Source of the DNA: Marivita sp. GX14005
GTDB lineage: Bacteria > Pseudomonadota > Alphaproteobacteria > Rhodobacterales > Rhodobacteraceae
Reading direction: 5' to 3'
Assembly (NCBI RefSeq): GCF_023370775.1
Contig: NZ_JAMCCQ010000001.1
Coordinates: forward strand, 1,054,001 to 1,118,000
Length of the DNA stretch: 64,000 bases
Notes under the pieces: generated by a model
The model's database searches: none
What the model saw: the letters and a program-made list of their open reading frames with translations, nothing else
Told to the model about the DNA's origin: nothing
Shown here: positions 12,200-29,027 of the stretch, piece after piece
Layout: every line of letters starts with the position of its first letter
Numbering within the stretch: position 1 is the first letter of the stretch
Position numbers and translations under genes: made by a program

Positions 12200-12286
<87 letters not shown>

Positions 12287-12320: not shown

Positions 12321-13226
12321 TCAGGTATGACCGTAAAGCACGGGCTCGCGAAGTCCGATGCACTTGCCGGCCGCGCCCAAATGCAATGCGCCTCGGATAA
12401 GCCACAGGTTTCTTTGTGATCGATCGAAGGCGTGGAGCGCGGACATTCCTCCGCAATAGATTGCCTTCGCACTGGCTCCCGCCAGAAGTGCAATACGCGT
12501 GCGCATGGGTTTCGAAGAGGTAAGCACCTCGGCGCGTGCATGGCTTTGACCGGCCCGCAGCTTTCGTCTGAGCAACCAGCGCAGCGAAAGTCGGTCGAAC
12601 TCGACCCTTTCGAAAACCAGGGCGTCCTCCGCGAAACGCAGAACGCCGCCGCGGCTGTGGACCTGGCGGAAAAGAACGGTGTCCTCACCGCCTGACCGTC
12701 CCAGAGCCGTGTCGAAGCGAAGCCCCCGAACCGCGGGCGAGGCCAAGCGGATCAGCACATTCGCCGAACACCCGGTTTTGAGCGCGGCGCGCATGGCGGG
12801 TGCCTTTGTCGAATGATAATCCCCGTCAACGAGCCAATGATCGGCCTGATCCGGGTAGATCGCACGCGCCGGGCCGAACACGACATCTGCGCCGGTTGAA
12901 TATGCGGCGGAATAGAGGCGCGCCAGCCATTGCCGCGATACCGTCTCGTCATCGTCCAGAAACGCGAGGAAATCACCTTGCGCCGCATCGAGACCGGCAT
13001 TTCGAGCGATCGAGATGTTGCGCGCCGGTGCGTGAATGTAGGTGACGGGAAACGGCAGAGCAAAGCCTTTCGCCAGCGATTTGGCCGATGGCGTATCGTC
13101 ATTGTCGACGATCAAGAGGCGAACGGCGGTACCTCCGGGGATGTCGATCTCGCGAAGCGATGCAAGCGTGTCTGCCAATCCAGGCCGGCGGAAGGTGCAA
13201 ATGCAGATGTCGATCGCGGCGCTCAT
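12321..13226 (-). CDS. Glycosyltransferase family 2
   Basis: This 301-residue GT-A fold enzyme begins I-D-I-C-I-C-T-F-R-R-P, with V-D-N-D-D-T-P for nucleotide binding, then A-R-N-A-G-L-D-A-A and F-L-D-D-D-E-T-V, which supplies the divalent-metal DxD-like acidic motif, and S-G-G-E-D-T as the probable catalytic acid region. Cytosolic transfer of a sugar from a nucleotide-sugar donor is expected; donor and acceptor cannot be read from sequence. Its start overlaps the stop of the upstream GT2 gene by 4 bp (ATGA), so the two are co-translated. It is the outermost gene of the polysaccharide locus, next to tRNA-Leu. Confidence 0.9.
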   Translation of the reverse strand: MSAAIDICICTFRRPGLADTLASLREIDIPGGTAVRLLIVDNDDTPSAKSLAKGFALPFPVTYIHAPARNISIARNAGLDAAQGDFLAFLDDDETVSRQWLARLYSAAYSTGADVVFGPARAIYPDQADHWLVDGDYHSTKAPAMRAALKTGCSANVLIRLASPAVRGLRFDTALGRSGGEDTVLFRQVHSRGGVLRFAEDALVFERVEFDRLSLRWLLRRKLRAGQSHARAEVLTSSKPMRTRIALLAGASAKAIYCGGMSALHAFDRSQRNLWLIRGALHLGAAGKCIGLREPVLYGHT

Positions 13227-14152
13227 CTGGCATATTCCCGCCTCTGGCCTCCGAAAAGACCGGAAATGACACCCGCCCCCCGCGCGATGAGAGCGATACC
13301 GTCACCAAGACCCGCGCGCCCGCGAACAAGCGCGCGAGGAAGTTGAACGACCCCAAGGCCAATCATGACCATGCCGCGCATCGTGCAATACAGCCCCGCG
13401 AAACCTGTGGATTTGCGCAGCAGCACAACATTCGCGCGGGTGATTCCGTAGCGGTATTGCCGCAGGGTCGCCCATTTCCACGTCAGCCGGTTTTTCTTCT
13501 GTATCTCGTAAACGATGGCTTTCGATGCGAAACGTCCCGTTCCGCCAGCGGCAACCAGATCGGCGAAGAACAGCGTGTCGGATCCGCCGTCGAAGCGGAG
13601 TTGCGGATCAAAACGGCAACCGGCACGAGCGACAAAAGCCAGATCGATCAGGACATTGTTTGTCCAGCTTTCAGAACGGTGGCTGAAGTTGGAAAACTCC
13701 TTTTGGCGAAAGAACCCGCTACGTAGCCACCAGCCATCGCGCGTATCCTCGACCGTCATCAATAGCGGACCTTGCACGAAGGCGGCCCTTGTTTGCAAAG
13801 CGACATTCACCAGTTCGTTGAGCCATTGCGGATCGACCGTCTCGTCGTCGTCCACGAAGGCAAGATAGCCTCCATCGCCCGCTTCGGCGAGCGCGCGGTT
13901 TCGTGCGAAGGGGATACCGGGCTGCGTTTCATGCACATAATGCACGGGGCAAGGCGCGCTATTTCGAAACCTGTCGACCACAGGCTGGGCGGATTTGCGA
14001 ATGTCGTTATCCACGACGATCACGCGGGGTGCGATCCGGTCGTCGATCTCCAGCCCGCGAATCGATGACAGAAGGAGTTCGAGGTCCGTCTGTCTCGCGT
14101 AGGTGCAGATCGCGATGGCAACATCAATTTGGGGAAGCTGCGAATTTCGCAT
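13223..14152 (-). CDS. Glycosyltransferase family 2 with C-terminal hydrophobic region
   Basis: This protein of about 309 residues has GT2 motifs: A-I-C-T-Y-A-R-Q near the N terminus, V-V-D-N-D, A-R-N-R-A-L-A-E-A, F-V-D-D-D-E-T-V and G-G-S-D-T-L-F-F. The last 80 residues are hydrophobic and end in G-V-I-S-G-L-F-G-G. It is a clear paralogue of the gene at 27274-28182 over the whole length, including the W-T-N-N-V-L-I-D-L segment and this tail. Start uncertain: ATG 14152 is chosen because it immediately precedes the fold, though its ribosome-binding site is weak; the frame opens at 14221. Overlaps the next GT2 by 4 bp. Confidence 0.87.
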   Translation of the reverse strand: MRNSQLPQIDVAIAICTYARQTDLELLLSSIRGLEIDDRIAPRVIVVDNDIRKSAQPVVDRFRNSAPCPVHYVHETQPGIPFARNRALAEAGDGGYLAFVDDDETVDPQWLNELVNVALQTRAAFVQGPLLMTVEDTRDGWWLRSGFFRQKEFSNFSHRSESWTNNVLIDLAFVARAGCRFDPQLRFDGGSDTLFFADLVAAGGTGRFASKAIVYEIQKKNRLTWKWATLRQYRYGITRANVVLLRKSTGFAGLYCTMRGMVMIGLGVVQLPRALVRGRAGLGDGIALIARGAGVISGLFGGQRREYAR

Positions 14153-14494: not shown

Positions 14495-15946
14495 ATGGAT
14501 GATGCACGGTATTTCGAGTCCGTCTCCAAACAGACGACGCTGGTCGTCGATCTTGACGGGAGTTTGATCCGAACGGATTTGCTTTATGAGACCTTTTGGG
14601 CCGCGATATCAAAGCGGTGGCTGAACGTTTTTCCAGCTCTGGGGGCCGTGTTTCGCGGACGGGCTGTGCTCAAGCGGCGTCTGTCCGAGCTGGGGGAAAT
14701 CGACGTTTCCGCGCTTCCCTACAACTCGGGTGTCCTGAAATACGTTGCCGAATGGCATGCACAGGGAGGGCGGACGGCACTCGTTTCGGCGTCGGATCAG
14801 CGCCTGGTGTCCCGCGTCGCGGACCATCTGGGCATTTTCGACGATGCAATCGGTTCGGACGGAAGATCGAATCTCAAGGGCGCAACGAAAGCCGCCCGGC
14901 TGAACGCGGTCTACGGCGATGCCGGCTATGCCTATATCGGTGATTCCAGAGCGGATCTTGCTGTCTGGAAGGATGCCAGCGAAGCCTTGACAGTTGGAAT
15001 CGCACCGAGCCTTGAAAAGCGCGTGAGGCAGGTTTCGCAAGAGGCCACCACGCTCAGCCCGCATGAGGCACGTCTGCCGCATGTCATCCGGGCCATGCGA
15101 CCGCATCAATGGCTCAAGAACGTGCTGGTTTTCCTGCCGCTTCTCGCGGCGCACCAATTCGATTTCGTTACACTGAGCCTTGCGCTCGCAACCTTCATAG
15201 CGTTCAGCCTCATCGCTTCCTCGGTTTACCTGCTGAACGATCTTCTCGATCTGGCTGCGGACCGGGCCCACCCACGCAAGCGGATGCGTCCCTTTGCGAG
15301 CGGCGATCTGCCGTTGTCTTGGGGATCGGTCCTCGCGCCGGGCCTACTGCTGGCCGGTTTCGCGATCGCGGTTGCCATAAGCCCCATGCTGGCTGCGGTT
15401 CTGGCGTTCTACTACCTAGCGACCACGGTTTATTCGTTTTTGCTCAAGCGGAAGCTGATCGTGGATATCTGTGCGCTCGCCGGGCTTTACACCTTGCGGA
15501 TCATCGCCGGTGCGGTGGCAACGGGCATCCCGTTGTCTGTGTGGCTTCTCGCGTTCTCGACCTTCTTTTTCTTCTCCCTCGCGGCCATGAAACGTCAGGC
15601 GGAATTAGCAGCGTCTTCCCATTCCAAAAGCACGATCATCGCCGGGCGGGATTACAAGACAACCGACCTACCCATCGTGGCGAATATGTCCGTGGCGTCG
15701 GGCTATGTCTCGGTTCTGGTCATGGCGCTTTATCTCAACACGCCGGATGTCGAACGCCTCTACTCCTATCCCGCCTCGCTTTGGGGGATTTGCCTCGTGC
15801 TGCTCTATTGGCTGAGCCGGATGGTCATGATCACGCATCGCGGATGGATGCATGACGATCCCGTGGTCTTCGCCGCGCGCGACTACATCTCGATCATCTG
15901 TGCCGGACTGATCCTCGTCTTCGCGCTGGGAGGCGTTTTGCTATGA
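14495..15946 (+). CDS. HAD-UbiA fusion: polyprenyl-phosphate phosphoribosyltransferase with candidate phosphatase domain
   Basis: This 483-residue two-domain protein has a HAD phosphatase-like domain at residues 13-175, with D-L-D-G-S (nucleophile Asp19, acid Asp21), V-S-A-S-D motif II and G-D-S-R-A-D motif IV. Residues 195-483 form a UbiA-type membrane domain with about eight helices, the first Asp motif N-D-x-x-D-x-x-x-D at 248-256 and the second loop D-I-C-A-L-A-G-L-Y-T-L-R-I-I-A-G. The UbiA part resembles Rv3806c, which transfers 5-phosphoribose from PRPP to decaprenyl phosphate in the cytoplasmic membrane. The HAD part could remove the 5-phosphate; that role is inferred. The ATG at 14495 follows AGAGAG; a GTG 3 bp earlier is possible. 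First gene of a four-gene overlapping operon. Confidence 0.85.
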   Translation: MDDARYFESVSKQTTLVVDLDGSLIRTDLLYETFWAAISKRWLNVFPALGAVFRGRAVLKRRLSELGEIDVSALPYNSGVLKYVAEWHAQGGRTALVSASDQRLVSRVADHLGIFDDAIGSDGRSNLKGATKAARLNAVYGDAGYAYIGDSRADLAVWKDASEALTVGIAPSLEKRVRQVSQEATTLSPHEARLPHVIRAMRPHQWLKNVLVFLPLLAAHQFDFVTLSLALATFIAFSLIASSVYLLNDLLDLAADRAHPRKRMRPFASGDLPLSWGSVLAPGLLLAGFAIAVAISPMLAAVLAFYYLATTVYSFLLKRKLIVDICALAGLYTLRIIAGAVATGIPLSVWLLAFSTFFFFSLAAMKRQAELAASSHSKSTIIAGRDYKTTDLPIVANMSVASGYVSVLVMALYLNTPDVERLYSYPASLWGICLVLLYWLSRMVMITHRGWMHDDPVVFAARDYISIICAGLILVFALGGVLL

Positions 15947-16365
15947 CCCGCACGACGCTCGTGACGCGTTATGTCGCCTTCGCGATTCTGGCAACGCTTC
16001 TCAATCTGGCGGTGCAGCGCATGGTTCTGAGTGTGGACGGCGGCGCGGTCGGCTTCGCGGCTGCGGTGGGGCTTGGCACGTTGGCGGGTCTGGCGTTGAA
16101 ATACGCGTTGGACAAGCGCTGGATCTTTGGCGATCTGTCCCGTGGCGTCGCAGCGCATGGCCGCAAATTCTCGATGTATACGGCAATGGGTGTCATAACC
16201 ACGGCGATCTTCTGGGGAACGGAAACGGCGTTCTGGGTGGTCTGGAAAACCGACGGGATGCGCGAACTTGGCGCGGTTCTCGGGCTCGCGGCGGGATACG
16301 TTATAAAATACCGGCTGGACCGCCGCTTCGTGTTTCCCCGGCCGGGGATCGGGCGGCTCGCATGA
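15943..16365 (+). CDS. GtrA family membrane protein
   Basis: This 140-residue protein has four predicted transmembrane helices, spread over about residues 7-132, and the GtrA signature of paired K-Y-x-L-D-K-R-W-x-F and K-Y-R-L-D-R-R-F-V-F segments after helices 2 and 4. GtrA proteins act with polyprenyl-linked sugars in the membrane. In mycobacteria the GtrA protein Rv3789 is encoded beside DprE1/DprE2 and has been linked to arabinan assembly, either as a flippase or as an anchor. Here it overlaps the HAD-UbiA and DprE1-like genes by 4 bp on each side, which argues for the same pathway. Confidence 0.88.
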   Translation: MTRTTLVTRYVAFAILATLLNLAVQRMVLSVDGGAVGFAAAVGLGTLAGLALKYALDKRWIFGDLSRGVAAHGRKFSMYTAMGVITTAIFWGTETAFWVVWKTDGMRELGAVLGLAAGYVIKYRLDRRFVFPRPGIGRLA

Positions 16366-17696
16366 CGCCCTCGGTCGCGCTGTCCGGTTGGGGCCGGTTC
16401 CCGACATGCTGGACAAGGCTCGCCGCGCCGCGCGGCCCGACGGATGTGAAAGCCGAGCTTTCTCCCGGCGGCGTGATCGCGCGGGGCGGCGGGCGCGCCT
16501 ATGGCGACAGCGCGATTGGAAGCTCCCGAACGCTCGACATGGGGCGAATGAACCGGATGCTCGCCTTCGATTACGAGACTGGCACTCTTGTGGCGGAGGC
16601 CGGCGTGCGGCTGTCCGAGATCATCGATGTGTTCCTGCCCCGCGGATTCTTCCCGTTCGTCACGCCCGGCACCAAGTTCGTCTCGCTCGGCGGTGCGATT
16701 GCGGCGGATGTGCATGGCAAGAACCACCACAAGGACGGCTCGTTCGGCGCGTTTGTCGAGTGGATCGACGTGATGGGCGCGGATGGAGAGGTCACGCGCG
16801 CCGGTCCGCGCGACAACGGCGCGCTCTTCGAATGGACACTCGGGGGGATGGGGCTTACCGGAATCATCCTGCGTGCGGCGATCCGGCTGCGGCCGGTTGA
16901 AACCGCTTGGATCAAACAGCAAACCCTCGTGGCACCGGATCTCGATGCAGCGCTTGATGCGTTCGAGCGCGCGGATGAGGCAACCTATTCGGTGGCCTGG
17001 ATCGACTGCCTCGCCTCGGGCAAGGAATTGGGTCGCTCCCTGATCCTGCTGGGGGAACATGCCTCGGCCGAAGATTTGCCGCCGGAGCAGCGCGCGCACC
17101 CGTTCCGTACGGCCCCGAGGCGCAAACGGACCGTTCCTTTCGATGCGCCCAGGTTCACGCTCAACCGCCATACCGTTCGCGCGTTCAACGCCGCCTATTG
17201 GCGCAACGGGTCGAAACGCGAAGGAGAGGCGCTCGTGGATTGGGACAGTTACTTCTACCCGCTCGATGCCATTCTGGGGTGGAACCGGATCTACGGCCGG
17301 CGCGGGTTCGTGCAGTTCCAATGTGTTTTGCCGCTCGACCGGGCGCGTGACGGGCTCGAACGGCTCCTTCTGGAGACGTCGCAGGCAGGACAAGGCTCGT
17401 TTCTTGCGGTGCTGAAACGGCTTGGGCCCGAACGGGGCGGTTTGTCGTTTCCGATGTCGGGATACACGCTGGCGCTCGATTTCCCGGTCAACCGACGCGC
17501 GCTTGCCCTGATCGAAAGGCTGGAGTCCATCGCGATCGAACATGGCGGGAGGTTCTATCTCGCGAAGGACGCGCTGCTCGGCGCGCGCAGCCTGCACGAG
17601 GCTGATCCTCGGGCTGGCCTATTCCGGCAGATGCGTTCGGAACGCGGCATGAACGGGGTGTTCGGGTCACGGCAATCCGACAGGTTGCTGCTATGA
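16362..17696 (+). CDS. DprE1-like FAD-binding oxidoreductase (decaprenylphosphoryl-ribose 2'-oxidase)
   Basis: This 444-residue FAD-binding PCMH-fold oxidase has a flavin-binding R-G-G-G-R-A-Y-G-D-S-A near residue 45 and T-P-G-T-K-F-V-S-L-G-G-A-I-A-A-D-V-H-G-K-N-H-H near 103. The C-terminal region aligns with mycobacterial DprE1: L-S-F-P-M-S-G-Y-T-L-A-L-D-F-P, then Y-L-A-K-D with Lys402 at the catalytic lysine position. DprE1 oxidises decaprenylphosphoryl-ribose to the 2'-keto intermediate. The position of the mycobacterial Cys387, targeted by benzothiazinones, is Ala371 here by my manual alignment. It overlaps GtrA and the DprE2-like gene by 4 bp each. Substrate is inferred from operon content. 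Confidence 0.88.
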   Translation: MTPSVALSGWGRFPTCWTRLAAPRGPTDVKAELSPGGVIARGGGRAYGDSAIGSSRTLDMGRMNRMLAFDYETGTLVAEAGVRLSEIIDVFLPRGFFPFVTPGTKFVSLGGAIAADVHGKNHHKDGSFGAFVEWIDVMGADGEVTRAGPRDNGALFEWTLGGMGLTGIILRAAIRLRPVETAWIKQQTLVAPDLDAALDAFERADEATYSVAWIDCLASGKELGRSLILLGEHASAEDLPPEQRAHPFRTAPRRKRTVPFDAPRFTLNRHTVRAFNAAYWRNGSKREGEALVDWDSYFYPLDAILGWNRIYGRRGFVQFQCVLPLDRARDGLERLLLETSQAGQGSFLAVLKRLGPERGGLSFPMSGYTLALDFPVNRRALALIERLESIAIEHGGRFYLAKDALLGARSLHEADPRAGLFRQMRSERGMNGVFGSRQSDRLLL

Positions 17697-18439
17697 GCGA
17701 GACGGGGAAACAGCGCGTGCTTATCCTGGGCGGGCGGTCCGATATCGGGCTCGCGATCGCCCGGCGCTTTGCGGCGGACGGCCATCCGATCACGCTCGCC
17801 GCGCGCAATGCCCAAACGCTCGAGGACGACAAGGCTGATATTGCGTTGAGAAACGCGGTGGAGGTTTCGGTCGAAGAACTCGATGTGCTCGACACCGAAG
17901 CTATGGCAGCATTTGTCGCGAAAGGCGCGGCGCCGCCGGGCATCGTGGTGTCGGTGATCGGCGTCATGGGCGATCAGCACGAAAACCAGCGCGTGGCAGA
18001 GCAGGCGGCCCTGGTCATGCGCACGAATTACGAGGCGCCGGCGCTCGCTCTCGGTCTTTATGCGGAGCTTATGGAAGCGGCGGGAGAGGGCGTGCTTGTC
18101 GGTGTCAGCTCGGTCGCCGGGGATCGCGGGCGTGGCTCGAATTATGTCTACGGCTCGGCCAAGGCCGGTTTCACCGCATATCTGTCGGGATTGCGCAATC
18201 GTCTGAGCGGGAAAGGCGTTCACGTCGTCACGGTCAAACCGGGGTTCGTTGCCACGCGGATGACGGACGGCATGGACCTGCCGCAGCGTCTGGTGGCCCA
18301 ACCCGAGGAGGTGGCGGAAGCGATCTGGCACGCTGTCGAGAAGCGGCGCGATGTTGTCTATGTAAAACCGGTTTGGCGGTGGATCATGGGCATCATCGGC
18401 ATGCTGCCGGAACGCGTTTTCAAGAAAACCAGCCTCTAG
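17693..18439 (+). CDS. DprE2-like short-chain dehydrogenase (decaprenylphosphoryl-2-keto-pentose reductase)
   Basis: This 248-residue classical SDR has the cofactor motif L-G-G-R-S-D-I-G-L-A-I-A near residue 12, a conserved serine in V-S-S-V-A-G-D-R-G-R-G-S-N and the catalytic Y-G-S-A-K, followed by K-P-G-F-V-A-T-R-M-T. This D-R-G-R-x-S-N-Y-x-Y-G-S-x-K pattern is that of DprE2, which reduces the keto intermediate made by DprE1 to decaprenylphosphoryl-arabinose using NADH. It overlaps the DprE1-like gene by 4 bp and is followed 15 bp later by a GT2 gene. Confidence 0.88.
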   Translation: MSETGKQRVLILGGRSDIGLAIARRFAADGHPITLAARNAQTLEDDKADIALRNAVEVSVEELDVLDTEAMAAFVAKGAAPPGIVVSVIGVMGDQHENQRVAEQAALVMRTNYEAPALALGLYAELMEAAGEGVLVGVSSVAGDRGRGSNYVYGSAKAGFTAYLSGLRNRLSGKGVHVVTVKPGFVATRMTDGMDLPQRLVAQPEEVAEAIWHAVEKRRDVVYVKPVWRWIMGIIGMLPERVFKKTSL

Positions 18440-18454: not shown

Positions 18455-19453
18455 ATGGTGGAGCAAAGAGCGCAGATTGAAGAAAGACCGCCGAAAGTCA
18501 GCGTCGTCATTCCTGCGTTCAATGCAGAAAACACGCTGGAACGCGCGGTTCTATCGGCGTTGAACCAGACTGCGTCCGTCGAGATCGTCATCGTCGATGA
18601 CGCCTCTAGCGATGGCACAGCCGCCTTGGCGGAAACACTCTGCGCGCAAAGCCCATCTGCGAAGCTTCTTCGGCAGCCGGTGAATGCCGGTCCGGCGGCC
18701 GCGCGAAACCGGGCGATTGACGAGAGCGGCGCGCCGTGGATTGCGTTGCTGGATGCGGATGATTTCATGGCATCGGATCGGATCGCCCTTTTGCTTGCAC
18801 GCGCGGAATCGGGCGAGTTCGATTTTCTCGCCGATGACATCTACCGCGTGACTGAAGAAGATCTGCTCGCAACGAACCGAAGGCTTTGGAGCGATGATGA
18901 TTTCGGGTTCATGGACGTGACCTTTCTGGAGTTCGTCACCGGGAACCTGCACGGCAACCGGGGTCAACGGGGAGAGCTTGGGTTCATCAAGCCATTGATC
19001 CGGCGCGCATTTCTTGAAACGCATGGGCTGCGCTATTGCGAAGAGCTACGGCTTGCGGAAGATTACGTCTTCTATTCCGAGGCGCTTCTGGCCGGAGCCA
19101 AGTTCGGGCTCTCGGACCCTTACGGCTATTTCGCCGTGCATCGCGCCCGCTCGATCAGCGGTCAGCACGGAACGCGCGATCTCGGGGCCCTCGTCAGGGC
19201 GGATCGACGCTTGATGCGTAAGCCGGGCCTTACCCCAGCGGATACTCGCGCGCTGCGCACGCATTGTCGGCGCACGCATCGGGAATGGGCATGGCGGCGG
19301 TTGATCGATGCCGTGAGGATGCGGGATCTGCGTCAGATCGCGGCGTTCTGGAAGGAGCCACCGCATGTGTTAATGTCTCTGGCCGGGAAACTGGCTGCCG
19401 AGGCGCGGCTCCGGTCGCTTCGGATGATCGACCGACGCCTTGGATCGCGGTAA
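18455..19453 (+). CDS. Glycosyltransferase family 2 (ExoU/ExoW-like)
   Basis: This 332-residue GT2 has V-S-V-V-I-P-A-F-N-A-E-N-T-L-E-R-A, I-V-D-D-A-S-S-D-G-T, A-R-N-R-A-I and L-L-D-A-D-D (metal-binding) in the expected order, then L-A-E-D-Y-V-F as the probable catalytic acid region. The architecture resembles succinoglycan side-chain glucosyltransferases of the ExoU/ExoW type and the gene at 29008-29970, of which it is a paralogue. Placed 15 bp after the DprE2-like gene, it is probably the fifth gene of that operon. Sugar specificity unknown. Confidence 0.88.
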   Translation: MVEQRAQIEERPPKVSVVIPAFNAENTLERAVLSALNQTASVEIVIVDDASSDGTAALAETLCAQSPSAKLLRQPVNAGPAAARNRAIDESGAPWIALLDADDFMASDRIALLLARAESGEFDFLADDIYRVTEEDLLATNRRLWSDDDFGFMDVTFLEFVTGNLHGNRGQRGELGFIKPLIRRAFLETHGLRYCEELRLAEDYVFYSEALLAGAKFGLSDPYGYFAVHRARSISGQHGTRDLGALVRADRRLMRKPGLTPADTRALRTHCRRTHREWAWRRLIDAVRMRDLRQIAAFWKEPPHVLMSLAGKLAAEARLRSLRMIDRRLGSR

Positions 19454-19465: not shown

Positions 19466-20656
19466 TTACCAGTCATAGGCATCCAGCCGGATTTCCTGCC
19501 GTTCCTGAACACGGTCGGTTGCGTGACGCGGGCGCATCCGCAGCCGCGTTTTCGAGACGAGATGCGCCATTTGCAGTGTCTTGCGCCGATTTCCGGTCTG
19601 CAATGCGCGGCGCAGGGACCAGATAAGACCCCTGCCCAGGCTCGCGGCAATATCGCGGCCCGCGGGCGAGATGCGGCGCAAGCGAACGAGGCGGGCAATT
19701 TGAGCTTCGGTCAGGCGAACGCCATGCTTTCCCGAAACCGCCCGGCGGCAAATGTTGGCGGAACAGGGACCAAGAGCGCGTTCCGGTGAAATCCTTGCGG
19801 CGAGTTCGAAATCGTCGAGCGCCCTGTCCCAAAGGTGATGGCGCGCAAAAACGCCTCCGCGCTGCAGCAAGGCCGCGCGGCATATACCAAGGCGATCGCC
19901 CTCGAACATGGCTTGCATCAGAGACAGCGGCAAATGTCGGTGAAGCCTTTCGAATACGATTTGGTCATGCGTCGCCCACACGGTTTCGGAGTCCTCGGCT
20001 GAGTGCCGATGACCGAGGGGGCCACGATCTCCATCATGTTTGCGCTGAAGAAAAAGCGTGTCGCTGAGCATGCGCACGGGATAGCGCGTCGCGAGTCGCA
20101 CGATCATGTCGTAATCGATCGAACGGGGAAGATCCTCGCGGAACGGACCGACCCGATCGTAGCAACGCCGCCGCACGAGAGTCGCGTTCTGAAAGAGAAA
20201 AATATCCTCAAGCAGATGGCGCAGCGGAGTGCCTTGGTTCAGATCGGGCCAGTACCCGGCATCGAAGTATTTTCTGCCGCCAGCGCCTGTATCGCGAAAC
20301 CGCTTGTAGGTGCCCCCGGCAATGCCGGTTTCCGGCTCGCGTTCCAGCACGGCCGCCATTTTCTCGGCTGCGTCGGGAAGCGCAATGTCGTCGTCATCGC
20401 AAATCCAGATGTAATCGCCCCGCGCCAATTGCATGGCTTGATTGAGAGCCGCCGCTTTGCCGGCGTTTCCGGCGCGACGATACTCGATTCGCGGATCGTT
20501 CAGACGGCTCATCGTTTCACTGGTGCCATCGGTCGATCCGTCATCCCAGACGATGATCTGCTCCACCTCTCGTGTCTGCCCAAGCAAGGCGTCGAGCGCC
20601 TGCTGCAAATAGGCGCTGCGATTGAATGTGGGAACAATGGCCGAAATGCCGGGCAC
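19466..20656 (-). CDS. Glycosyltransferase family 2
   Basis: This 396-residue protein has an N-terminal GT-A domain (residues 1-235): S-A-I-V-P-T-F-N-R-S-A-Y, V-W-D-D-G-S-T-D-G-T, K-A-A-A-L-N-Q-A, I-C-D-D-D-D with the metal-binding aspartates, and R-S-I-D-Y-D-M-I near residue 175. The C-terminal 150 residues are basic and helical and not recognised. It is transcribed opposite to its neighbours, converging on the GT2 gene at 19453 with 12 bp between, and divergent from a sulfotransferase gene across about 140 bp of A/T-rich sequence. Confidence 0.86.
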   Translation of the reverse strand: MPGISAIVPTFNRSAYLQQALDALLGQTREVEQIIVWDDGSTDGTSETMSRLNDPRIEYRRAGNAGKAAALNQAMQLARGDYIWICDDDDIALPDAAEKMAAVLEREPETGIAGGTYKRFRDTGAGGRKYFDAGYWPDLNQGTPLRHLLEDIFLFQNATLVRRRCYDRVGPFREDLPRSIDYDMIVRLATRYPVRMLSDTLFLQRKHDGDRGPLGHRHSAEDSETVWATHDQIVFERLHRHLPLSLMQAMFEGDRLGICRAALLQRGGVFARHHLWDRALDDFELAARISPERALGPCSANICRRAVSGKHGVRLTEAQIARLVRLRRISPAGRDIAASLGRGLIWSLRRALQTGNRRKTLQMAHLVSKTRLRMRPRHATDRVQERQEIRLDAYDW

Positions 20657-20796: not shown

Positions 20797-21876
20797 ATGC
20801 ACTATCCTCGATCCTATTCGTTGAAGCGCATGATTTCGCGCAAAAATTATTTTCATATTGCTTGGAGATCGTTTCCGGTGAACAAGATTGCTGTGCACGA
20901 AGGATCGCAGAGCCTTCGCGTCAAAACCCAGCCAGTTGCGGATGGCCCTGATTTCATCATCGGCGGCGCACCGAAATGCGGAACGACATCGCTTCACTTC
21001 ATACTCGATCAGCATCCCGACATTTCATTGCCAGAAGACGAGGTTCACTACTTCGACGCGGACGATCCGATTGCCCATCCCGATTTTCTTCATGTGAACC
21101 GGCGCGCGCTGCGATGGTGGGATCCGGGGCCGACGGCTTTCGAAAATCGCGAATGGTATGGCGGGCGTTTTCCCGAAAGACCGAATGGCGGTCTCATCGG
21201 AGAAGATTCGACGACCTATCTCATGTCCGAAACGGCGGCCTGTCGTATTGCTGCGCGGCTACCGAAAGTGCGGATGATCTTCATGCTGCGCCATCCCGTT
21301 CGGCGGGCGTATTCGCAATATTGGCACCTTGTCAAAACATCCCGCGCTGTCGAGAGCTTCGAAAAGGCGATCCTGCGGTATCCGCATATCTTGCTCGGAT
21401 CGAGCTACCTTTCGGGTTTGCGGCGATTTCAGAATGCGCTGGGATCCGAGCGCGTTCATATCTGCATCTTCGAGGATTTTCTCGACGATACCCAAGGCGC
21501 CATCGACGCGGTTACGCAGTTCCTTGAGATCGGGCCAATGCGTGTCAATCCGCAGCGTGCTTGGTTCAACCGCACATTGTATTCCGGCTATCCAAGGCTA
21601 CACCGGGCCGCCAATCACGTTGGCCGCCGATTGGTTGCCGGACGCTATCGGCATCACATGGGCGACAGCGACAGCGCGGCACGGCGGATCGAAAACAAGC
21701 TTCACTACTGGTGGTTCCGGCACATAAACCCGCGCTTCATGAACGCGACGCGGCCGCCGGCAATGCGCGATACGACACGAGCCTATCTCGAACAGCATCT
21801 GTCCGCCCGGAACGCCGGGCTGTCGGACCTCCTCGATCGCGATCTTTCTAAGATTTGGCCGGGAATGGAGTGCTGA
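20797..21876 (+). CDS. Sulfotransferase
   Basis: This protein of up to 359 residues has the two PAPS-binding motifs of the sulfotransferase fold. The 5'-phosphosulfate loop is in F-I-I-G-G-A-P-K-C-G-T-T-S-L near residue 50, and the 3'-phosphate motif is R-M-I-F-M-L-R-H-P-V-R-R-A-Y-S near residue 158. Expected reaction: transfer of sulfate from PAPS to a carbohydrate hydroxyl. The start is uncertain: ATG 20797 and ATG 20830 are in frame, but GTG 20878 with GGAG about 12 bp upstream would give a start closer to the fold. The gene is followed 51 bp later by the chain-length gene. Confidence 0.85.
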   Translation: MHYPRSYSLKRMISRKNYFHIAWRSFPVNKIAVHEGSQSLRVKTQPVADGPDFIIGGAPKCGTTSLHFILDQHPDISLPEDEVHYFDADDPIAHPDFLHVNRRALRWWDPGPTAFENREWYGGRFPERPNGGLIGEDSTTYLMSETAACRIAARLPKVRMIFMLRHPVRRAYSQYWHLVKTSRAVESFEKAILRYPHILLGSSYLSGLRRFQNALGSERVHICIFEDFLDDTQGAIDAVTQFLEIGPMRVNPQRAWFNRTLYSGYPRLHRAANHVGRRLVAGRYRHHMGDSDSAARRIENKLHYWWFRHINPRFMNATRPPAMRDTTRAYLEQHLSARNAGLSDLLDRDLSKIWPGMEC

Positions 21877-21927: not shown

Positions 21928-24252
21928 ATGAATCGCCGCGGGACGTTTTCCAGTTTCATGGTTGATGATCCGCTCGATTCAACCCCGCGTCAGGGGGGCG
22001 TCACATTTTCGGACGTTTACCAGTTCATCCTCCGGCGTTGGACGTTGATCGCACTGGTTTTCATTGTGACGATCGTCATCAGTGGCGCGATGCTTTCAAA
22101 GATCGAACCCCGTTTCACAGCCACCGCTGAATTGACCTTGGTTGATCCGCGTCAGCAGAGTTCGCCCATCGCGGATTTGCTTACGGGCGTGCCCCTCAGC
22201 CGTCAGGTCGTCGAGCAGGAAATCGCAACGATGCGCTCTCGGTCCTTCATGATCGAGGTCGTCAAGCGTCTGGAGACGGACGGTCTCGATCTGGCGCAAC
22301 AGAGAGGCGGTCCTCCCGCTTGGCCCGTTCGCGCGTTCAGAACGGTAAAGCGGTATGTCTCCGGTCTGATTACGCCGCCGCCGGAACCGGTTCAGCTCGA
22401 TCCTCAAGAGCTATCGACAGACGGCGGCGCCACAGCGACCGGGGCAACAGCCTCCGGGGATCTGACAGAGTCCGACGCCAATCTCGCCACACTGGCCGAT
22501 GAGACAGTCCAATATGGTCCATTGGCCGATCTGCTTGCCGCTCTCCTTCAGATCAGCCAGCGGGGAAACGGATATGTTATCTACGTGACCGCTGAGGCGA
22601 AGGATCCGGACATCGCCGCCGCAATCGCGAATGCGACCGCTACGGAATACACCCGATTCAGCCTCGAACTGCGCAGCCAAGCGATAGAGGAGCAGGTGGA
22701 ACTGCTCACCGGGCGGGTCGATGAACTGGGTCGAAATCTCGAAGACGCGGAAACGGCGGTCGTTGATTTCCAGGTCCGCGTGACAGAGGCGAACGAAGCC
22801 AATGCCGATCAGTTGACGCGGCAGATCGAGGATTTGGGCCGTTCGCTGATCGCCGCGCGCACCGAAATTGTCGAGGCCGATGCGCGCCGGGGCAGGGTGC
22901 TCGAACTCGTTGCGCTCGATGGCCCCGTCGCGGCGTCCGATGTGCTGGAATCCCCGATCCTGATCGATCTGCGCCGCCAACTTTCGGAATACCGGATCGA
23001 ACGCAGCCGGGCAGTCGAGCAATTCGGAGAGGCATCACCTCAAGCCTCGGCGCTGGATGCGGTGATCGACAGGGTGGAACAGGAAGCGGTGATCGAAACC
23101 GACCGTATCGTGAGGCAGTATCAGACCCGTGCGAACACCGCGCGCGCGGTTGTGGCGTCGATCGAAAAGGAGCTTGCCTCGCTGGAGGAGAAGGTTAATG
23201 CGCGTTCGCGCGTGACCGTCGAGCTGGCCAAGTTGCGTCGTATCGCCGACGCGAACCGGATCGCCTATCAGGAATTCCTGAACGCGGCGACGGAATCGGC
23301 GCAGCTCAAGGCCCTGCAGCAACCCTCCGTCCGGCTGCTGTCCTTCGCCGAAACCCCGCGATCCCCAAGTTCGCCGCGAACCTTGATGCTTCTGGCGACG
23401 GCCGGTCTCGCAGGGCTTACCATCGGTTTCGGGCTGGCGCTGCTGCTCGAACTCACGAGCAACACCGTGAAAACCGCGCGCGAGATGCGCGATCTGACTG
23501 GCCTGCCGGTGATCGGAAGCTTCAGCCATATCCCCCGTCGCGGCCATTCCAGCCTGCAGACCAAGCTGGTTCAGGCACCGCAACTGCTCTCGAACCGGGA
23601 GCAGAAATTCATCGAGGAAGGACGCAGGCTTGCGCTGTTCCTCTCGGGCATCGCCGACCGCAATCGCGGAACGATCGTCTTCACGTCTGCGGTTTCCGAA
23701 GAGCGCACGGAAACTGCCGCGATGCTTTCGGCCTATGCGCTTGCCGGATGTCGCCATTCGGTGATCCTGATCGATGCGGCGAATGGACTCGCCAAGACAA
23801 AGCCCGACATCGGCGCACAGGACAATCTTGAAACGGCCGATTTGTCGATCAACGGTGGTTTCGAAGGAAGTATCGTTCGGACGAAAGGCGGGTTCGATCT
23901 GCTCTCGATCTCCAAAACTTCCGGCACGGATCTCGGCCAGATGTCCAACCGGTGGACCGAGGCGATGATGCAGAAGCTCAAGGATCGTTACGATTACATC
24001 ATCATCGAGACGACACCGGTGCTATCGCTCGGGAACGCGATCCGTTTTCTTCCCTATGCCGATACGGTTGTTGTCGCTTCTCGCTGGAACGCGACGGCGC
24101 GTCAGACCGTGGAATCCTGCATCCAGAGATTACACGATCTGCGCGCTCCGAACCTTTATGTCGTGATGACAGATGTGCGCCGCCGGATCGAGCGGAAATA
24201 CGAATATCGCGGGTTCGACAAGACCATGTCCGCGGGTTGGAGACGGTCATGA
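21928..24252 (+). CDS. Exopolysaccharide chain-length determinant, Wzz domain plus degenerate tyrosine-kinase domain (ExoP/GumC-like)
   Basis: This 774-residue inner-membrane protein has a cytoplasmic N terminus of about 40 residues, TM1 near 38-58, a Wzz-type periplasmic region with long coiled-coil stretches (about 60-475), TM2 near 485-505 with the P-rich S-F-A-E-T-P-R-S-P-S-S-P segment before it, and a C-terminal BY-kinase-like domain from about 570. In that domain the Walker A region reads F-T-S-A-V-S-E-E-R-T-E-T with no lysine, and Walker B-like Y-D-Y-I-I-I-E-T has Glu instead of Asp; there is no tyrosine-rich tail. It should control polymer length without kinase activity. Overlaps the OPX gene by 4 bp. 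Confidence 0.9.
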   Translation: MNRRGTFSSFMVDDPLDSTPRQGGVTFSDVYQFILRRWTLIALVFIVTIVISGAMLSKIEPRFTATAELTLVDPRQQSSPIADLLTGVPLSRQVVEQEIATMRSRSFMIEVVKRLETDGLDLAQQRGGPPAWPVRAFRTVKRYVSGLITPPPEPVQLDPQELSTDGGATATGATASGDLTESDANLATLADETVQYGPLADLLAALLQISQRGNGYVIYVTAEAKDPDIAAAIANATATEYTRFSLELRSQAIEEQVELLTGRVDELGRNLEDAETAVVDFQVRVTEANEANADQLTRQIEDLGRSLIAARTEIVEADARRGRVLELVALDGPVAASDVLESPILIDLRRQLSEYRIERSRAVEQFGEASPQASALDAVIDRVEQEAVIETDRIVRQYQTRANTARAVVASIEKELASLEEKVNARSRVTVELAKLRRIADANRIAYQEFLNAATESAQLKALQQPSVRLLSFAETPRSPSSPRTLMLLATAGLAGLTIGFGLALLLELTSNTVKTAREMRDLTGLPVIGSFSHIPRRGHSSLQTKLVQAPQLLSNREQKFIEEGRRLALFLSGIADRNRGTIVFTSAVSEERTETAAMLSAYALAGCRHSVILIDAANGLAKTKPDIGAQDNLETADLSINGGFEGSIVRTKGGFDLLSISKTSGTDLGQMSNRWTEAMMQKLKDRYDYIIIETTPVLSLGNAIRFLPYADTVVVASRWNATARQTVESCIQRLHDLRAPNLYVVMTDVRRRIERKYEYRGFDKTMSAGWRRS

Positions 24253-25472
24253 TCAGAATGGTCAAAACTCGACTGGCTGCCCTGACAATAAGCCTGATCG
24301 CGCTATGCGGAGTTGCGTTTGCAGAGAGCTACCGGCTCGGTCCCGAGGACGTTGTTTCACTACGCGCCGTCGCCTGGAACGACAGGACCGCATCGTTCGA
24401 GGCGATGGATGCGCTGATCGGCGACTATGTCGTTTCGTCCGATGGGTCGATCTCTATTCCCTTCGCCGGAACGGTGATGGCGCGCGGTGCCACGGTGAAA
24501 GAGCTTGGAGAAACGATCGCCGCGCGATTGCAGGCGGCGACCGGGCTTTATCAGCCGCCTCAGGTCTGGTTGCAGATCGCCGCCTATCGGCCGTTCTACA
24601 TGCTTGGCGATATCGCCAATCCCGGCGCTTATCCCTGGCGTCCGGGTCTGACGGCAAGCAAGGCGCTCGCGCTGGCCGGCGGACTCTATCGAACGCGCGG
24701 CGATGCGGCGGGCGATGTTTCGGAATATCGCCAACTAAGTTCGCTGCGCGGCGTTCAGGTGGATTTGGTGCGTTTGCGCGCGCGGCAGGCGCGTCTGGAA
24801 GCAGAGCAGCGGGAAGCGGACGCGATTGATTTTCCTGAAACCCTCGTTCACCCGGACGGCCCGGCGGCAATAGCGCGTATCAAGGCCGAAGAGCGCGCGA
24901 TTTTCGGCATCAGGCGCGAATCCGAAGCACGGGATATCGAATCAAACAAGGCGTTGATTGCACTCTATCGAACCGAGCTCGCCGCGCTCGAAGCCAAGCT
25001 GATCGGCGTGCGCCGGCAACTCGAAGGCGCTCGGGAGCGTGTCGAGAACCTTCGTGTTCTGGTCGAGCGCGGAACGGTCGTCACGACGCAGCTGATCAAT
25101 GCCGAGCGAACCCTGACCGATCTCAGCGCCGAGGAACTCGATCTGAATACTGCGATCTTTCGTGCTCGGCAGGGAATTGGCGAAACGGAACGCGACGTGT
25201 TGCAGGCTGCTGACAGGCGCCAACACGAGATTGTCACGCAATTGCAGGACACTAGGCACAAAACGGAGCTTGCGACAAAACGCGAGGCGATGTTCCTCAG
25301 TCTTGCGGCCGCGACTGGGCTGAGCGCGCTCGACGGACCGGTTCAAACGGTTCTGCAAGTGCGCCGCGAGATCGATGGCGAGATCGAGGTGATCCGACTG
25401 GCATCCGACGATCCCATCGAGCCCGGCGATGTTTTTGAAGTCTCCTTCGATCTGGCTATCGCGAGCCAGTAG
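24249..25472 (+). CDS. Polysaccharide export protein, OPX family (ExoF/Wza-like)
   Basis: This 407-residue protein has a Sec signal peptide (about residues 1-25, cut after A-F-A). It then has the Poly_export domain, beginning Y-R-L-G-P-E-D-V-V-S-L and including D-G-S-I-S-I-P-F-A-G-T-V, and a SLBB-like segment with F-Y-M-L-G-D-I-A-N-P-G-A-Y-P-W-R-P-G-L-T near residue 115. The second half (about 165-355) is a long coiled coil, as in ExoF/GumB-type periplasmic adaptors, and not the outer-membrane helix barrel of Wza. The ATG at 24249 overlaps the upstream stop (ATGA). With the chain-length protein it should form the trans-envelope export conduit. Confidence 0.9.
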   Translation: MIRMVKTRLAALTISLIALCGVAFAESYRLGPEDVVSLRAVAWNDRTASFEAMDALIGDYVVSSDGSISIPFAGTVMARGATVKELGETIAARLQAATGLYQPPQVWLQIAAYRPFYMLGDIANPGAYPWRPGLTASKALALAGGLYRTRGDAAGDVSEYRQLSSLRGVQVDLVRLRARQARLEAEQREADAIDFPETLVHPDGPAAIARIKAEERAIFGIRRESEARDIESNKALIALYRTELAALEAKLIGVRRQLEGARERVENLRVLVERGTVVTTQLINAERTLTDLSAEELDLNTAIFRARQGIGETERDVLQAADRRQHEIVTQLQDTRHKTELATKREAMFLSLAAATGLSALDGPVQTVLQVRREIDGEIEVIRLASDDPIEPGDVFEVSFDLAIASQ

Positions 25473-25484: not shown

Positions 25485-26345
25485 TCAATTGGTGTGCATA
25501 AGATCGCTGCATTGCGGAGTATTCTTGTCCGGCGGCGTGTAGGACACGCATTGCACGCTGGCCTGTGCGCGACTGTGCGGCGGGGCCTCTCCCGACCAGC
25601 CCGCCTGTTGCGGGCCACCGGCCCAGAGATCGACATATATTTTCATCGGCGGCTGGGGCAGGTTCTCTTTGCCTGTCAAACGGAAAATCTCTGCTTCGCC
25701 GGCTGTCCATACGATCGACTCTTCGGACCATTCTATTGCATAAAGCATGGGCGCGTCGGACGCATCGAAACCCAGATCGATCCAGGGCGGCTGCGCGAGG
25801 GGTTCGCCATCATCATAGCGATTGATCTGAACCTTGGTCGTATCCTTTCCCAGAAACTCGATGTCGATCTCATCGTGTTCATCGCCGAAATGTGGACCGG
25901 TATAGAGATAGAACGCGCTGATCAGACCTTCGCCCTTCGCCGGGCGCATGACGATCTCATAGCGGCCATGACCATACCATTTGCGCCGCTGAAGCTGCGC
26001 ACTGAAAAAGTCTTTCGATGTTTTTCCCGCTTCTTTCAGAGAGCCGTTATCCTCTTTCATGTCCGCGCGCGAGACACGCGCGTCCTCCGGCACCGGAGAA
26101 AGCGCGAAGAGTGCGCCGGCATCACCGGTCTCGAACGCGCTCTTGCGCCATGCGGTGCCGAACCAACCGGCCGGATGGTCGTAATCGGCGATCCACCATT
26201 GATCGCCAAGCCCGCTAAGCGCAAAGACCGTGCGAAACGGAACGCCTTCAGCTTTCTCTTTCGCCGACGCATCGGGGGGTGTTGCGAAAATGCCGACGGC
26301 GAGCGCCGCGCCTGACATCAAAATTCTGCCGACACCGTTTGGCAC
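25485..26345 (-). CDS. Secreted glycoside hydrolase family 16 (ExoK-like endoglycanase)
   Basis: This 286-residue protein has a signal peptide (core I-L-M-S-G-A-A-L-A-V-G-I-F-A) and a GH16 jelly-roll domain. The catalytic signature E-I-D-I-E is in D-E-H-D-E-I-D-I-E-F-L-G, with nucleophile and acid/base glutamates four residues apart. Y-G-H-G-R-Y-E upstream and W-T-A-G-E-A-E-I-F downstream are also typical. Rhizobial ExoK cleaves nascent succinoglycan, so trimming of the local polysaccharide is likely. The GTG at 26345 is preferred: it has GGGAG 7 bp upstream, lies 1 bp after the upstream sulfotransferase stop and leaves a clean signal peptide. ATG 26363 is an alternative. Confidence 0.88.
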   Translation of the reverse strand: MPNGVGRILMSGAALAVGIFATPPDASAKEKAEGVPFRTVFALSGLGDQWWIADYDHPAGWFGTAWRKSAFETGDAGALFALSPVPEDARVSRADMKEDNGSLKEAGKTSKDFFSAQLQRRKWYGHGRYEIVMRPAKGEGLISAFYLYTGPHFGDEHDEIDIEFLGKDTTKVQINRYDDGEPLAQPPWIDLGFDASDAPMLYAIEWSEESIVWTAGEAEIFRLTGKENLPQPPMKIYVDLWAGGPQQAGWSGEAPPHSRAQASVQCVSYTPPDKNTPQCSDLMHTN

Positions 26346-26346
26346 A

Positions 26347-27036
26347 TCAATACTCCCAACCATGCAGCGCAATCTCATGCGTAAAGGCTCTGGCGATTTC
26401 GCTGGCCTGCTTTTCGGTCAACACATCCTTATACTTCCGCCCATCCCTGCGCAGATCCCCTTTGGCGTGGGGTAGGCCGCCGAACGGCAGTCCGATCTCA
26501 TCGCAAAGCTCCGCCAGATCATCGTTCAATCGGTCGAAACGCAGAACCCGATCGACCAGCGGCTTGCCGGACGCATCGCAGTAAAATGGCGCGTTATGGC
26601 ACAGGATGCCGTTTGCGAGGTACCGATCCAGGGTCAGCTCGGGATCATGGTGGCGGTGCCAGGCCGCATTTCTGAACATATGATAATGCGATAGCGTCTT
26701 GTCCCAGGGATTCCGTTCGACACAGACTTTGAGATAGGAAATCCAGATCTTCGGCGGCATACGCGCTTTCGCGAAGCGGGCCGGAATATGGTTGTAGAAC
26801 CTGTCGCGTCGCACGCATTCACGCACGTTCTTGCGCAGATCGGCTGCGGAGCGCACTTCGCGCCAGGGAGGAAACACGCCGCGCCAGTTCTGCGATACAT
26901 GACCGTCGATCTTTGGGAAAATCGGGGTGATAATATCGGTGGGGCCGCAATGACGCGACAGCTCCAACTCGATACTGGTGCCCGCCGACTTCAGCGTTTT
27001 GATGAATATCAGTCGGTAGCGATGCGAAACAATCAT
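26347..27036 (-). CDS. Sulfotransferase family protein
   Basis: This 229-residue protein has a PAPS-type loop, R-L-I-F-I-K-T-L-K-S-A-G-T-S-I-E, at residues 8-23, with later V-C-V-E-R-N-P-W-D-K-T-L-S as the second nucleotide-binding motif (about residue 125). This layout matches the short sulfotransferase families that act on carbohydrates. The ATG at 27036 is chosen because it begins the fold and has AGGCG upstream; the frame is open 30 codons further. It is probably cotranscribed with the GH16 gene, which starts 1 bp downstream. Confidence 0.8.
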   Translation of the reverse strand: MIVSHRYRLIFIKTLKSAGTSIELELSRHCGPTDIITPIFPKIDGHVSQNWRGVFPPWREVRSAADLRKNVRECVRRDRFYNHIPARFAKARMPPKIWISYLKVCVERNPWDKTLSHYHMFRNAAWHRHHDPELTLDRYLANGILCHNAPFYCDASGKPLVDRVLRFDRLNDDLAELCDEIGLPFGGLPHAKGDLRRDGRKYKDVLTEKQASEIARAFTHEIALHGWEY

Positions 27037-27273: not shown

Positions 27274-28182
27274 TTGAAAATCGCTATTTGTGCCTGCACG
27301 TTCAATCGCCCGGACGGTCTTGCTCAACTTCTGAGATCCATTCGCGCTATTGAAACGCGACCGGATATGGATATCCGGCTCATCATCGTGGACAATGACG
27401 ACACACCTTCCGCATACGGGGTGTTTGCGGTGGAGACCCGTGATTATCCATTCGCCTGCAGGTATGTGCATGAAACCGTGCCCGGCATTCCGGCCGCACG
27501 GAACCGTGTCCTGGACGAGGTCGGCTCCGAGGGTTTCGCCGTCTTTATTGATGACGACGAGGTCGTCTCACCCCGCTGGGTTCTCGAACTGGTGCAGGTT
27601 GCGGAGCGCACCGGAGCGACATTCGTTCAGGGACCGGTTGAGATGCGCGTGGAAGATGAGCGCGATCAGTGGTGGTTGCAGACCCTTTTCTTTTTGCAGC
27701 GCCGCTTCTCGGACGGGGAAGGGCGAAGCGAAAGCTGGACGAACAATGTCCTCGTCGATCTGAAGGAATTGAATCGGTTGGGATGCAGGTTCGACGAAGG
27801 GCTGAGCTTCTATGGCGGTGAAGACACGCTGTTCTTTCAGGATATCATCCGCGCGGGCGGTCGCGGTGCCTATGCGGCCAACGCTTGGGTGTACGAGATT
27901 CAGCAAACGAATCGTCTTACATGGAGATGGGCCGTCAGCCGCCAGTTCCGCTGCGGAACGACGCGGGCAATGACCGTGCTCATGCGACGCCCGAAAGCGC
28001 AGAGTGTCGTCTACTGCGTGGTGCGCGGAAGCGGCATGGTTCTTGTCGGTCTGGGATGGCTCGCCAGTTCCATTCTTCAGGGCCGTCGTGGATTTGCGAA
28101 TGGCATTGCGATGCTCTCACGTGCTGCGGGGGTCCTTTCCGGTCTCGTCGGCGGACGCGGGCGGCTGGAGTATATGAGGTGA
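27274..28182 (+). CDS. Glycosyltransferase family 2, paralogue of 13223-14152
   Basis: This 302-residue GT2 begins at TTG with C-G-A-G-G-type Shine-Dalgarno sequence upstream; no ATG lies near the fold start. Motifs: A-I-C-A-C-T-F-N-R-P, V-D-N-D-D-T-P, A-R-N-R-V-L, F-I-D-D-D-E-V-V, W-T-N-N-V-L-V-D-L, G-G-E-D-T-L-F-F. The C-terminal 80 residues are hydrophobic and end G-V-L-S-G-L-V-G-G. Full-length similarity to the GT2 at 13223-14152 indicates duplication inside the locus. First gene of a four-gene run (27274-31201) with overlaps at every junction. Confidence 0.88.
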   Translation: MKIAICACTFNRPDGLAQLLRSIRAIETRPDMDIRLIIVDNDDTPSAYGVFAVETRDYPFACRYVHETVPGIPAARNRVLDEVGSEGFAVFIDDDEVVSPRWVLELVQVAERTGATFVQGPVEMRVEDERDQWWLQTLFFLQRRFSDGEGRSESWTNNVLVDLKELNRLGCRFDEGLSFYGGEDTLFFQDIIRAGGRGAYAANAWVYEIQQTNRLTWRWAVSRQFRCGTTRAMTVLMRRPKAQSVVYCVVRGSGMVLVGLGWLASSILQGRRGFANGIAMLSRAAGVLSGLVGGRGRLEYMR

Positions 28183-29027
28183 CGGTCGCGCCTGTCATTC
28201 GCGTGCCGACAAAGCCGGCGATGTTCGACAACAGGACGGCGATCGATCGCGTCGGCCTGACCGGATTGCAAAGGAGGATCGACGGCGTGCGTGGGCTTGG
28301 GCGAAATCACTTCGCGCTCGAGATCGAAGGACGCCGGATCGGTTACTGCTATATTCGCAAAAACGCGTGTTCCAGCTTCAAGAAGCTGTTCCTCGACCAT
28401 TCTCCACATCGCTCCCGGATACAGCAAAACGAGCGCCCCATTGATTTCATACGGAGGTTCCACCGGCTGCCCGTAGAGGAGCTTTTTCGTTGTGACGATC
28501 TGATTTTCGTCTATCGCGATCCTGTTGCGCGGGTGCTGTCGATGTTCCGAAACAAGTTCATCGCGCGAAACGGCGCAACGGACATTTTGGCTGGCTTCCG
28601 GCGGATAACCGGACGGGACCCCGAGCGCGCAAGTTTCCAGAGTTTTGTAGAAGCCTATCTCGGCCAGGATCCGGGCTACCTTGACCGCCATGTCCAGCCC
28701 CAGCGAATGCACTTGCAGCGAGTCGTCTATACCCACGCCATTCCGATTGACGGTTTGCATGGCGCTATGAGCGCGCTTCTTGGTGCCCCGCTCGCAGATC
28801 GCTACTTTCTGAAACCTGTCAACCGAACATCGAACGCAACGCTCGTTCACCTTCCCGGCGGCGCCGTGCGACCGGTACGGGAATGGCAGAACCTCTTCGA
28901 TTTGCGTGCGGAAATGCCCGACGATGCGAGTTTGCTGAGCGATGCGCTTGTTGCTCGGTTGCGAAGAATTTACGCGATGGATTACGCGATGCTGGATGCG
29001 GTCAAACATGCTTCCCGGTGCCACTGA
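28179..29027 (+). CDS. Sulfotransferase family 2-like protein
   Basis: This 282-residue protein has R-I-G-Y-C-Y-I-R-K-N-A-C-S-S-F-K-K-L near residue 60 as the PAPS 5' loop and D-L-I-F-V-Y-R-D-P-V-A-R-V-L-S-M-F near residue 110 as the 3' motif, the pattern of Sulfotransfer_2 (carbohydrate) enzymes. Start: GTG 28179 overlaps the upstream GT2 stop by 4 bp (GTGA), consistent with translational coupling; ATG 28221 is the alternative. It ends 20 bp inside the following GT2 gene. Confidence 0.8.
   Translation: MTVAPVIRVPTKPAMFDNRTAIDRVGLTGLQRRIDGVRGLGRNHFALEIEGRRIGYCYIRKNACSSFKKLFLDHSPHRSRIQQNERPIDFIRRFHRLPVEELFRCDDLIFVYRDPVARVLSMFRNKFIARNGATDILAGFRRITGRDPERASFQSFVEAYLGQDPGYLDRHVQPQRMHLQRVVYTHAIPIDGLHGAMSALLGAPLADRYFLKPVNRTSNATLVHLPGGAVRPVREWQNLFDLRAEMPDDASLLSDALVARLRRIYAMDYAMLDAVKHASRCH

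Follow-up and report, generated by a model that had tools for sequence, protein, structure and literature searches.

How a Gram-negative bacterium could place D-arabinofuranose (D-Araf) on an exopolysaccharide (EPS) is the question raised by a 64,000-nucleotide stretch of contig NZ_JAMCCQ010000001.1 of Marivita sp. GX14005, which is referred to here as the window. Positions 14495-18439 contain four open reading frames (ORFs), all on the plus strand, with a 4-base overlap at each of the three joints. These coordinates agree with a first-pass annotation of the same DNA, which assigned the products to the HAD-UbiA, GtrA, DprE1-like and DprE2-like families, and proposed a donor pathway of the type that makes decaprenylphosphoryl-arabinose (DPA) in mycobacteria. 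The families were recovered in searches of Pfam and NCBIfam, with the DprE1 and DprE2 scores under the curated cut-offs, and the donor pathway was upheld by homology. While the four-gene pathway stood, that annotation made no use of a HAD domain that fits a phosphatase, and it overlooked a GT-C glycosyltransferase encoded at 38482-40161. The homology of the four proteins supports the D-Araf donor well, so that a module making lipid-linked D-Araf, taken alone, is very likely present. The whole chain, including the GT-C protein and an EPS acceptor, is a probable though less secure prediction. The protein families, domain order, catalytic residues, operon conservation and GT-C co-occurrence were read from sequence and models, while each reaction in Marivita sp. 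GX14005 is predicted from them.

The first ORF begins at 14495, with a GTG just 5′ of it at 14492. Pfam searches detected in its product a HAD domain (PF12710, E 7e-12) and a UbiA domain (PF01040, E 1e-18). The protein matched the NCBIfam model PRK08238 (NF006088) with 615 bits, above the curated cut-off of 351, which was exceeded in none of 14 named control genomes, although ten of them had matches below it. Phosphoribosyltransferase models of NCBIfam scored 135-172 bits, as compared to 37 bits or less for heme O and UbiA (quinone) models. The only matches in a PDB sequence search at E 0.001 were two structures of Rv3806c, which was also the top fold match of the UbiA half, closer than quinone, heme or archaeal lipid enzymes. 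When the ligand and motif residues of Rv3806c (contacts from PMC10994848) were mapped, 13 of 15 were kept, namely both motif aspartates and 11 of 13 contacts to phosphoribosyl pyrophosphate (PRPP) or polyprenyl phosphate. Gln135 and Lys208 were the two that differ, and the 13 kept positions were invariant across 27 relatives. The HAD motifs were also intact. These data identify the UbiA half by homology as an Rv3806c-type phosphoribosyltransferase, with predicted transfer to polyprenyl phosphate, while the HAD half fits the 5-phosphatase step.

The product of the second ORF matched the GtrA domain PF04138 (E 3e-9; 37.6 bits versus a cut-off of 26.1) and passed the cut-off of the NCBIfam model gtrA_1 (162 bits versus 50). 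The PF04138 cut-off was exceeded in seven of the 14 control genomes, and, because control genomes match too, weak matches to PF04138 or PRK08238 do not discriminate. The gtrA_1 model was matched in none of the 14, C. glutamicum among them, and the host genome contained one GtrA match. The role of the mycobacterial GtrA protein Rv3789 is contested between donor flipping and partner recruitment (PMC7389260). The third product contains the Pfam domain FAD_binding_4 (E 3e-17) and aligned to MtDprE1 across residues 3-442 (E 7e-77), a full-length match that makes it a DprE1 homologue in the broad sense. Its score against the DprE1 equivalog model NF053785 (402 bits, E 3e-120) did not reach the cut-off of 500, which was passed in none of 289 genomes of the class. 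Of twelve positions that we take to belong to the DprE1 pocket, nine were kept and three differed. The host genome contained one DprE1, a second match being merely 25% identical over residues 54-216. The fourth product, with the Pfam domain adh_short (E 2e-25) and a YxxxK motif at residue 153, scored 194 bits (E 3e-57) against the DprE2 equivalog model NF053786, under the cut-off of 250, and its best NCBIfam model was that of a general short-chain dehydrogenase/reductase (SDR), NF005489 (334 bits).

DprE1 homologues were detected at E 1e-40 in 37 of the 289 class genomes. Within the family, at E 1e-60, they occurred in 105 of 295 genomes, and 68 of 72,556 plasmid records also contained one. 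A collection of named genomes contained at least 587 DprE1 places, from which the nearest 80 loci were kept for gene-order counts. These loci were mainly from alphaproteobacteria, with records of Nocardioides, Thermosynechococcus, Granulosicoccus and Rugamonas included, and they contained UbiA in 69, HAD-UbiA in 40, GtrA in 38 and a DprE2-like gene in 77 cases. In 29 of the 80 the four genes had the window's order on a single strand within a span of 7 kb, which argues that their arrangement is not due to chance. The restriction of such genes to a few alphaproteobacteria, as first annotated, was hence too narrow, since DprE1 occurs more widely in the genome and plasmid samples and the Gram-negative form has been published (PMC11127046, PMC5080398, PMC12369383). 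In the Bradyrhizobium loci L119, L123, L124 and L127 the HAD domain fused to UbiA misses several motif residues, which looks like decay of the phosphatase. Among 50,697 phage records HAD-UbiA had no match besides a partial one in MT837543.1, a phage record from human faeces, where an unannotated UbiA-type stretch (4883-5746) is 29% identical over 59% of the window protein.

The GT-C gene was detected from the membrane profile and a DD motif of its product. As a single query the protein gave nothing in Pfam and NCBIfam, no match to the AftB equivalog model NF041481 at E up to 1, and one chance-level match alone in the PDB (E 2.1). A profile built from its family reached mycobacterial AftB at E 7e-40, with all other GT-C chains unmatched up to E 10, and NF041481 matched four of ten family members, with the best at 1.7e-15. 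In the hidden Markov model alignment all six AftB residues compared were kept: the catalytic Asp62 (D54 here) and the donor contacts T91 (T84), E172 (E159), R221 (R202), T274 (T256) and R372 (R341), as defined for AftB (PMC12041299). AftB was the top match in Foldseek, while VIA-align did not rank it first. A PMT_2-type GT-C had no match in the whole host genome at E 0.001.

The occurrence of the GT-C gene was compared with that of DprE1. In single-query searches of two genome samples all GT-C-positive genomes, six of six and eight of eight, carried DprE1 (p 2e-5 and 6e-4, own genome excluded). With the GT-C profile, 16 of 18 matches were in DprE1-positive genomes, a count that is biased because three of the ten seed proteins were found beside DprE1; removing the eight seed genomes left 8 of 10. 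Two DprE1-negative genomes had weak profile matches, and 21 of the 37 DprE1-positive class genomes had none. The GT-C gene lies 20 kb from the four donor genes in the window, while its orthologue in Shimia begins 16 bases past dprE2 and is followed by Wzx- and Wzc-like genes. Hence, the GT-C protein is probably an arabinofuranosyltransferase that uses the donor. On plasmid pORIO1 of Cereibacter azotoformans a hypothetical protein encoded between gtrA and dprE1 (L083:13712-15013) matched the GT-C profile weakly (E 4.5e-13), and the donor operon may there include a transferase gene. In Salipiger sp. CCB-MM3 the island on plasmid unnamed3 encodes, in addition to the orthologue of the window GT-C, a second AftB-like GT-C (137 bits; L086:801-2426).

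The proposed reactions would begin in the cytoplasm, where the UbiA domain would move phosphoribose from PRPP to polyprenyl phosphate, with undecaprenyl phosphate as the expected carrier, and the fused HAD domain would take off the 5-phosphate. DprE1, using flavin adenine dinucleotide (FAD), and DprE2, using nicotinamide adenine dinucleotide (NAD), would then invert C2 to give polyprenyl-phosphoryl-D-arabinofuranose. GtrA could bring this donor to the periplasmic side, or hold the machinery there, and the AftB-like GT-C would pass D-Araf to a sulfated EPS made by the surrounding Wzx/Wzy-type locus. In this scheme the flipping of the donor is inferred, as are the acceptor and the linkage. A more speculative extension is that the HAD-UbiA, GtrA, DprE1 and DprE2 genes are a portable donor cassette, plugged into differing glycan loci with interchangeable GT-C enzymes. 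The partner here would then be a retaining AftB-like GT-C, and the polymer would carry beta-D-Araf, which is the linkage of mycobacterial arabinan ends.

The genes around the operon also bear on the acceptor (Table 1). Glycosyltransferases, sulfotransferases, and Wzc/BY-kinase-like, Wza-like, Wzx, Wzy and priming transferase genes were found nearby, in agreement with the polysaccharide export setting that had been annotated. The sulfotransferases, the GH16 hydrolase and the Wzx, Wzy, priming transferase, Wzc-like and Wza-like genes suggest that the island makes a sulfated Wzx/Wzy-type EPS. In the 43-kb island (12321-55132), 28 of 30 tested genes, among them the four donor genes and the GT-C gene, had distinct counterparts, 50-69% identical, on Salipiger sp. 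CCB-MM3 plasmid unnamed3. The two islands are collinear from the donor genes as far as the LamG gene (31755), with the remainder rearranged.

Table 1. Features of the donor operon and the surrounding EPS island, in window coordinates
Feature	Coordinates	Strand
GT2 glycosyltransferase, left island end	12321..13226	-
GT2 glycosyltransferase (ORF reaches 14221)	13223..14152	-
HAD-UbiA fusion: predicted UbiA polyprenyl-phosphate phosphoribosyltransferase (~residues 190-483) with N-terminal HAD phosphatase (~residues 8-190)	14495..15946	+
GtrA family membrane protein; candidate flippase for the donor, or a partner protein	15943..16365	+
DprE1-like FAD oxidase	16362..17696	+
DprE2-like short-chain dehydrogenase/reductase	17693..18439	+
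GT2 glycosyltransferase, 15 bases past dprE2, also next gene in Salipiger locus	18455..19453	+
GT2 glycosyltransferase	19466..20656	-
Sulfotransferase	20797..21876	+
Wzc-like chain-length/tyrosine-kinase-type protein	21928..24252	+
Wza-like polysaccharide export protein, start inferred	24246..25472	+
GH16 glycoside hydrolase	25485..26378	-
GT2 glycosyltransferase	27274..28182	+
Sulfotransferase (Sulfotransfer_2), start inferred	28170..29027	+
GT2 glycosyltransferase, start inferred	28999..29970	+
GT1/GT4-type glycosyltransferase	29921..31201	+
Wzy/O-antigen-ligase family membrane protein	35557..36966	-
AftB-like GT-C glycosyltransferase, 559 aa; proposed D-arabinofuranosyltransferase	38482..40161	-
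Sulfotransferase	50468..51409	+
Priming sugar transferase (Bac_transf)	51581..52276	+
Wzx-type flippase	52555..54081	+

The pathway is already known in Gram-negative bacteria. Donor synthases of the HAD-UbiA type have been published, as have arabinofuranose systems that include DprE1/E2, and a HAD-UbiA homologue was characterised biochemically; HAD-UbiA systems without DprE1/E2 yield ribofuranose, and one lone SDR yields xylofuranose in Citrobacter (PMC11127046). The three-component pentofuranose system of Citrobacter youngae O1/O2 consists, like the one here, of a HAD-UbiA polyprenyl phosphoribose synthase, a membrane carrier and a GT-C, and the arabinofuranose versions of such systems also contain DprE1/E2 homologues (PMC11127046). 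They differ from the window in having a MATE-family flippase instead of GtrA beside the synthase, and the setting is an O antigen in C. youngae in contrast to a sulfated Wzx/Wzy EPS island (PMC11127046). The GT-C of these systems belongs to GT136; the window protein is called AftB-like from its comparison with AftB.

The Nod-factor arabinosylation operon noeCNHOP is known from Azorhizobium and Rhizobium sp. IRBG74 (PMC5080398, PMC2443382). On plasmids of IRBG74 and Sinorhizobium alkalisoli UbiA, GtrA, DprE1 and DprE2 genes follow each other on one strand, identical in order to the window, with a further protein next and nod genes adjoining, an arrangement that fits noeCNHOP. Unlike the window protein, the noe-type UbiA has no detected HAD domain (L082:7413-8582, L085:7416-8585). 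The fifth gene encodes NoeP, for which the GT-C profile gave no match, instead of a GT2 glycosyltransferase, and arabinose is placed on the Nod factor rather than on the EPS proposed here. Deletion of NoeP abolishes Nod-factor arabinosylation and that of noeN just lowers it, and noeN was put forward as a possible phosphatase (PMC5080398). The gene at the noeN position of the IRBG74 plasmid (NC_022536.1, L082:8582-9004) has the annotation of a GtrA family protein and also matches that family, which suggests that noeN encodes GtrA, an assignment based on gene order as the record bears new locus tags.

The mycobacterial DPA pathway (Rv3806c, Rv3789, DprE1, DprE2) and AftB have homologues here of the phosphoribosyltransferase, oxidase, reductase and GT-C, but the phosphatase is the separate Rv3807c in place of a fused HAD domain, the donor genes do not form one compact operon, the acceptor is arabinogalactan or lipoarabinomannan, and the decaprenyl carrier is not expected in Marivita. 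Pilin glycosylation in Pseudomonas paraeruginosa is likewise a Gram-negative D-Araf pathway with a GT-C transferase, although its acceptor is type IV pilin (PMC12369383). A D-Araf polymer was chemically proven in the alphaproteobacterium Devosia submarina (PMC8707391). Evidence against D-Araf on the polymer comes from Yangia sp. ND199, a relative of the Salipiger strain that may lack the island: its EPS was reported to consist of glucose, fructose and galactose with acidic sugars in minor amounts, glucose, galactose and fructose being the sole standards (PMC7892980).

The use of the same donor genes for Nod factors and pilin elsewhere, together with the 20 kb that separate the GT-C gene from the operon, could mean that a real donor module serves a lipopolysaccharide, glycoprotein or glycolipid and is merely located in an EPS island. 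Another acceptor is nevertheless unlikely, because the donor, GT-C and EPS genes recur jointly on the Salipiger plasmid and Wzx- and Wzc-like genes lie downstream of GT-C in Shimia. It is also rather improbable that donor and EPS acceptor are real but another island enzyme is the arabinosyltransferase, with the AftB-like GT-C adding something else. This could explain the lack of a family match for the GT-C as a single query, the DprE1-positive genomes without a profile match, the failure of the profile to detect NoeP and the weak matches in two DprE1-negative genomes. It is harder to reconcile with the exclusive placement of the GT-C in DprE1-positive genomes by single-query searches, the kept AftB residues, the operon position in Shimia and the lack of a PMT_2-type GT-C in the host genome.

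A different product, such as ribofuranose or another epimer, would be in line with the ribofuranose and xylofuranose systems mentioned above and with the DprE1 and DprE2 scores under curated cut-offs. We regard it as quite improbable, since DprE1 and DprE2 homologues are both there and adjacent, and D-Araf is the product of the noe operons, the closest ones with a known product. Most of the presumed DprE1 pocket positions (9/12) are kept as well. The identity of the UbiA gene as an ordinary quinone or heme prenyltransferase, with unrelated oxidoreductases as neighbours, was rejected and has a negligible probability. Apart from UbiA superfamily membership and the weak heme O/UbiA matches, the NCBIfam scores, the PDB matches, the kept PRPP residues and the fold all speak for an Rv3806c-type enzyme. 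The first-pass annotation would have been abandoned if UbiA best matched quinone or heme enzymes and the PRPP residues were gone; the opposite was found. D-Araf transfer to the EPS by the AftB-like GT-C is the preferred explanation.

Among the papers that literature searches listed, no earlier AftB-like GT-C or this operon in Gram-negative EPS loci was recognised beyond PMC11127046, whose supplementary figures cover further systems and could include one. The elements that look new are the AftB-like GT-C, the coupling of its gene to those of the donor pathway, and the conserved sulfated-EPS island. They tie an unannotated GT-C family to a lipid-linked arabinose donor outside mycobacteria, and define a five-gene set for asking how D-Araf could be placed on Gram-negative exopolysaccharides. 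A harmless environmental bacterium in which one island combines an AftB relative, GtrA and the donor pathway would be a convenient model for donor flipping and retaining GT-C chemistry, which are steps under debate in mycobacteria.

Several other features of the island were observed. A tRNA-Leu(CAG) gene (12200-12286) adjoins its left edge, and was rejected as an attachment site since no 14-base stretch of the tRNA is repeated elsewhere in the window. Two very large proteins, one with G8/CEMIP-like and LamG domains (31755-35549) and one with sugar-dehydrogenase, PKD and LamG domains (40361-45547), are conserved in the Salipiger island. The two genes without a Salipiger counterpart, which are PIG-L deacetylase-like and formyltransferase-like (48754-50471), suggest that the Marivita and Salipiger polymers may differ in one decoration.

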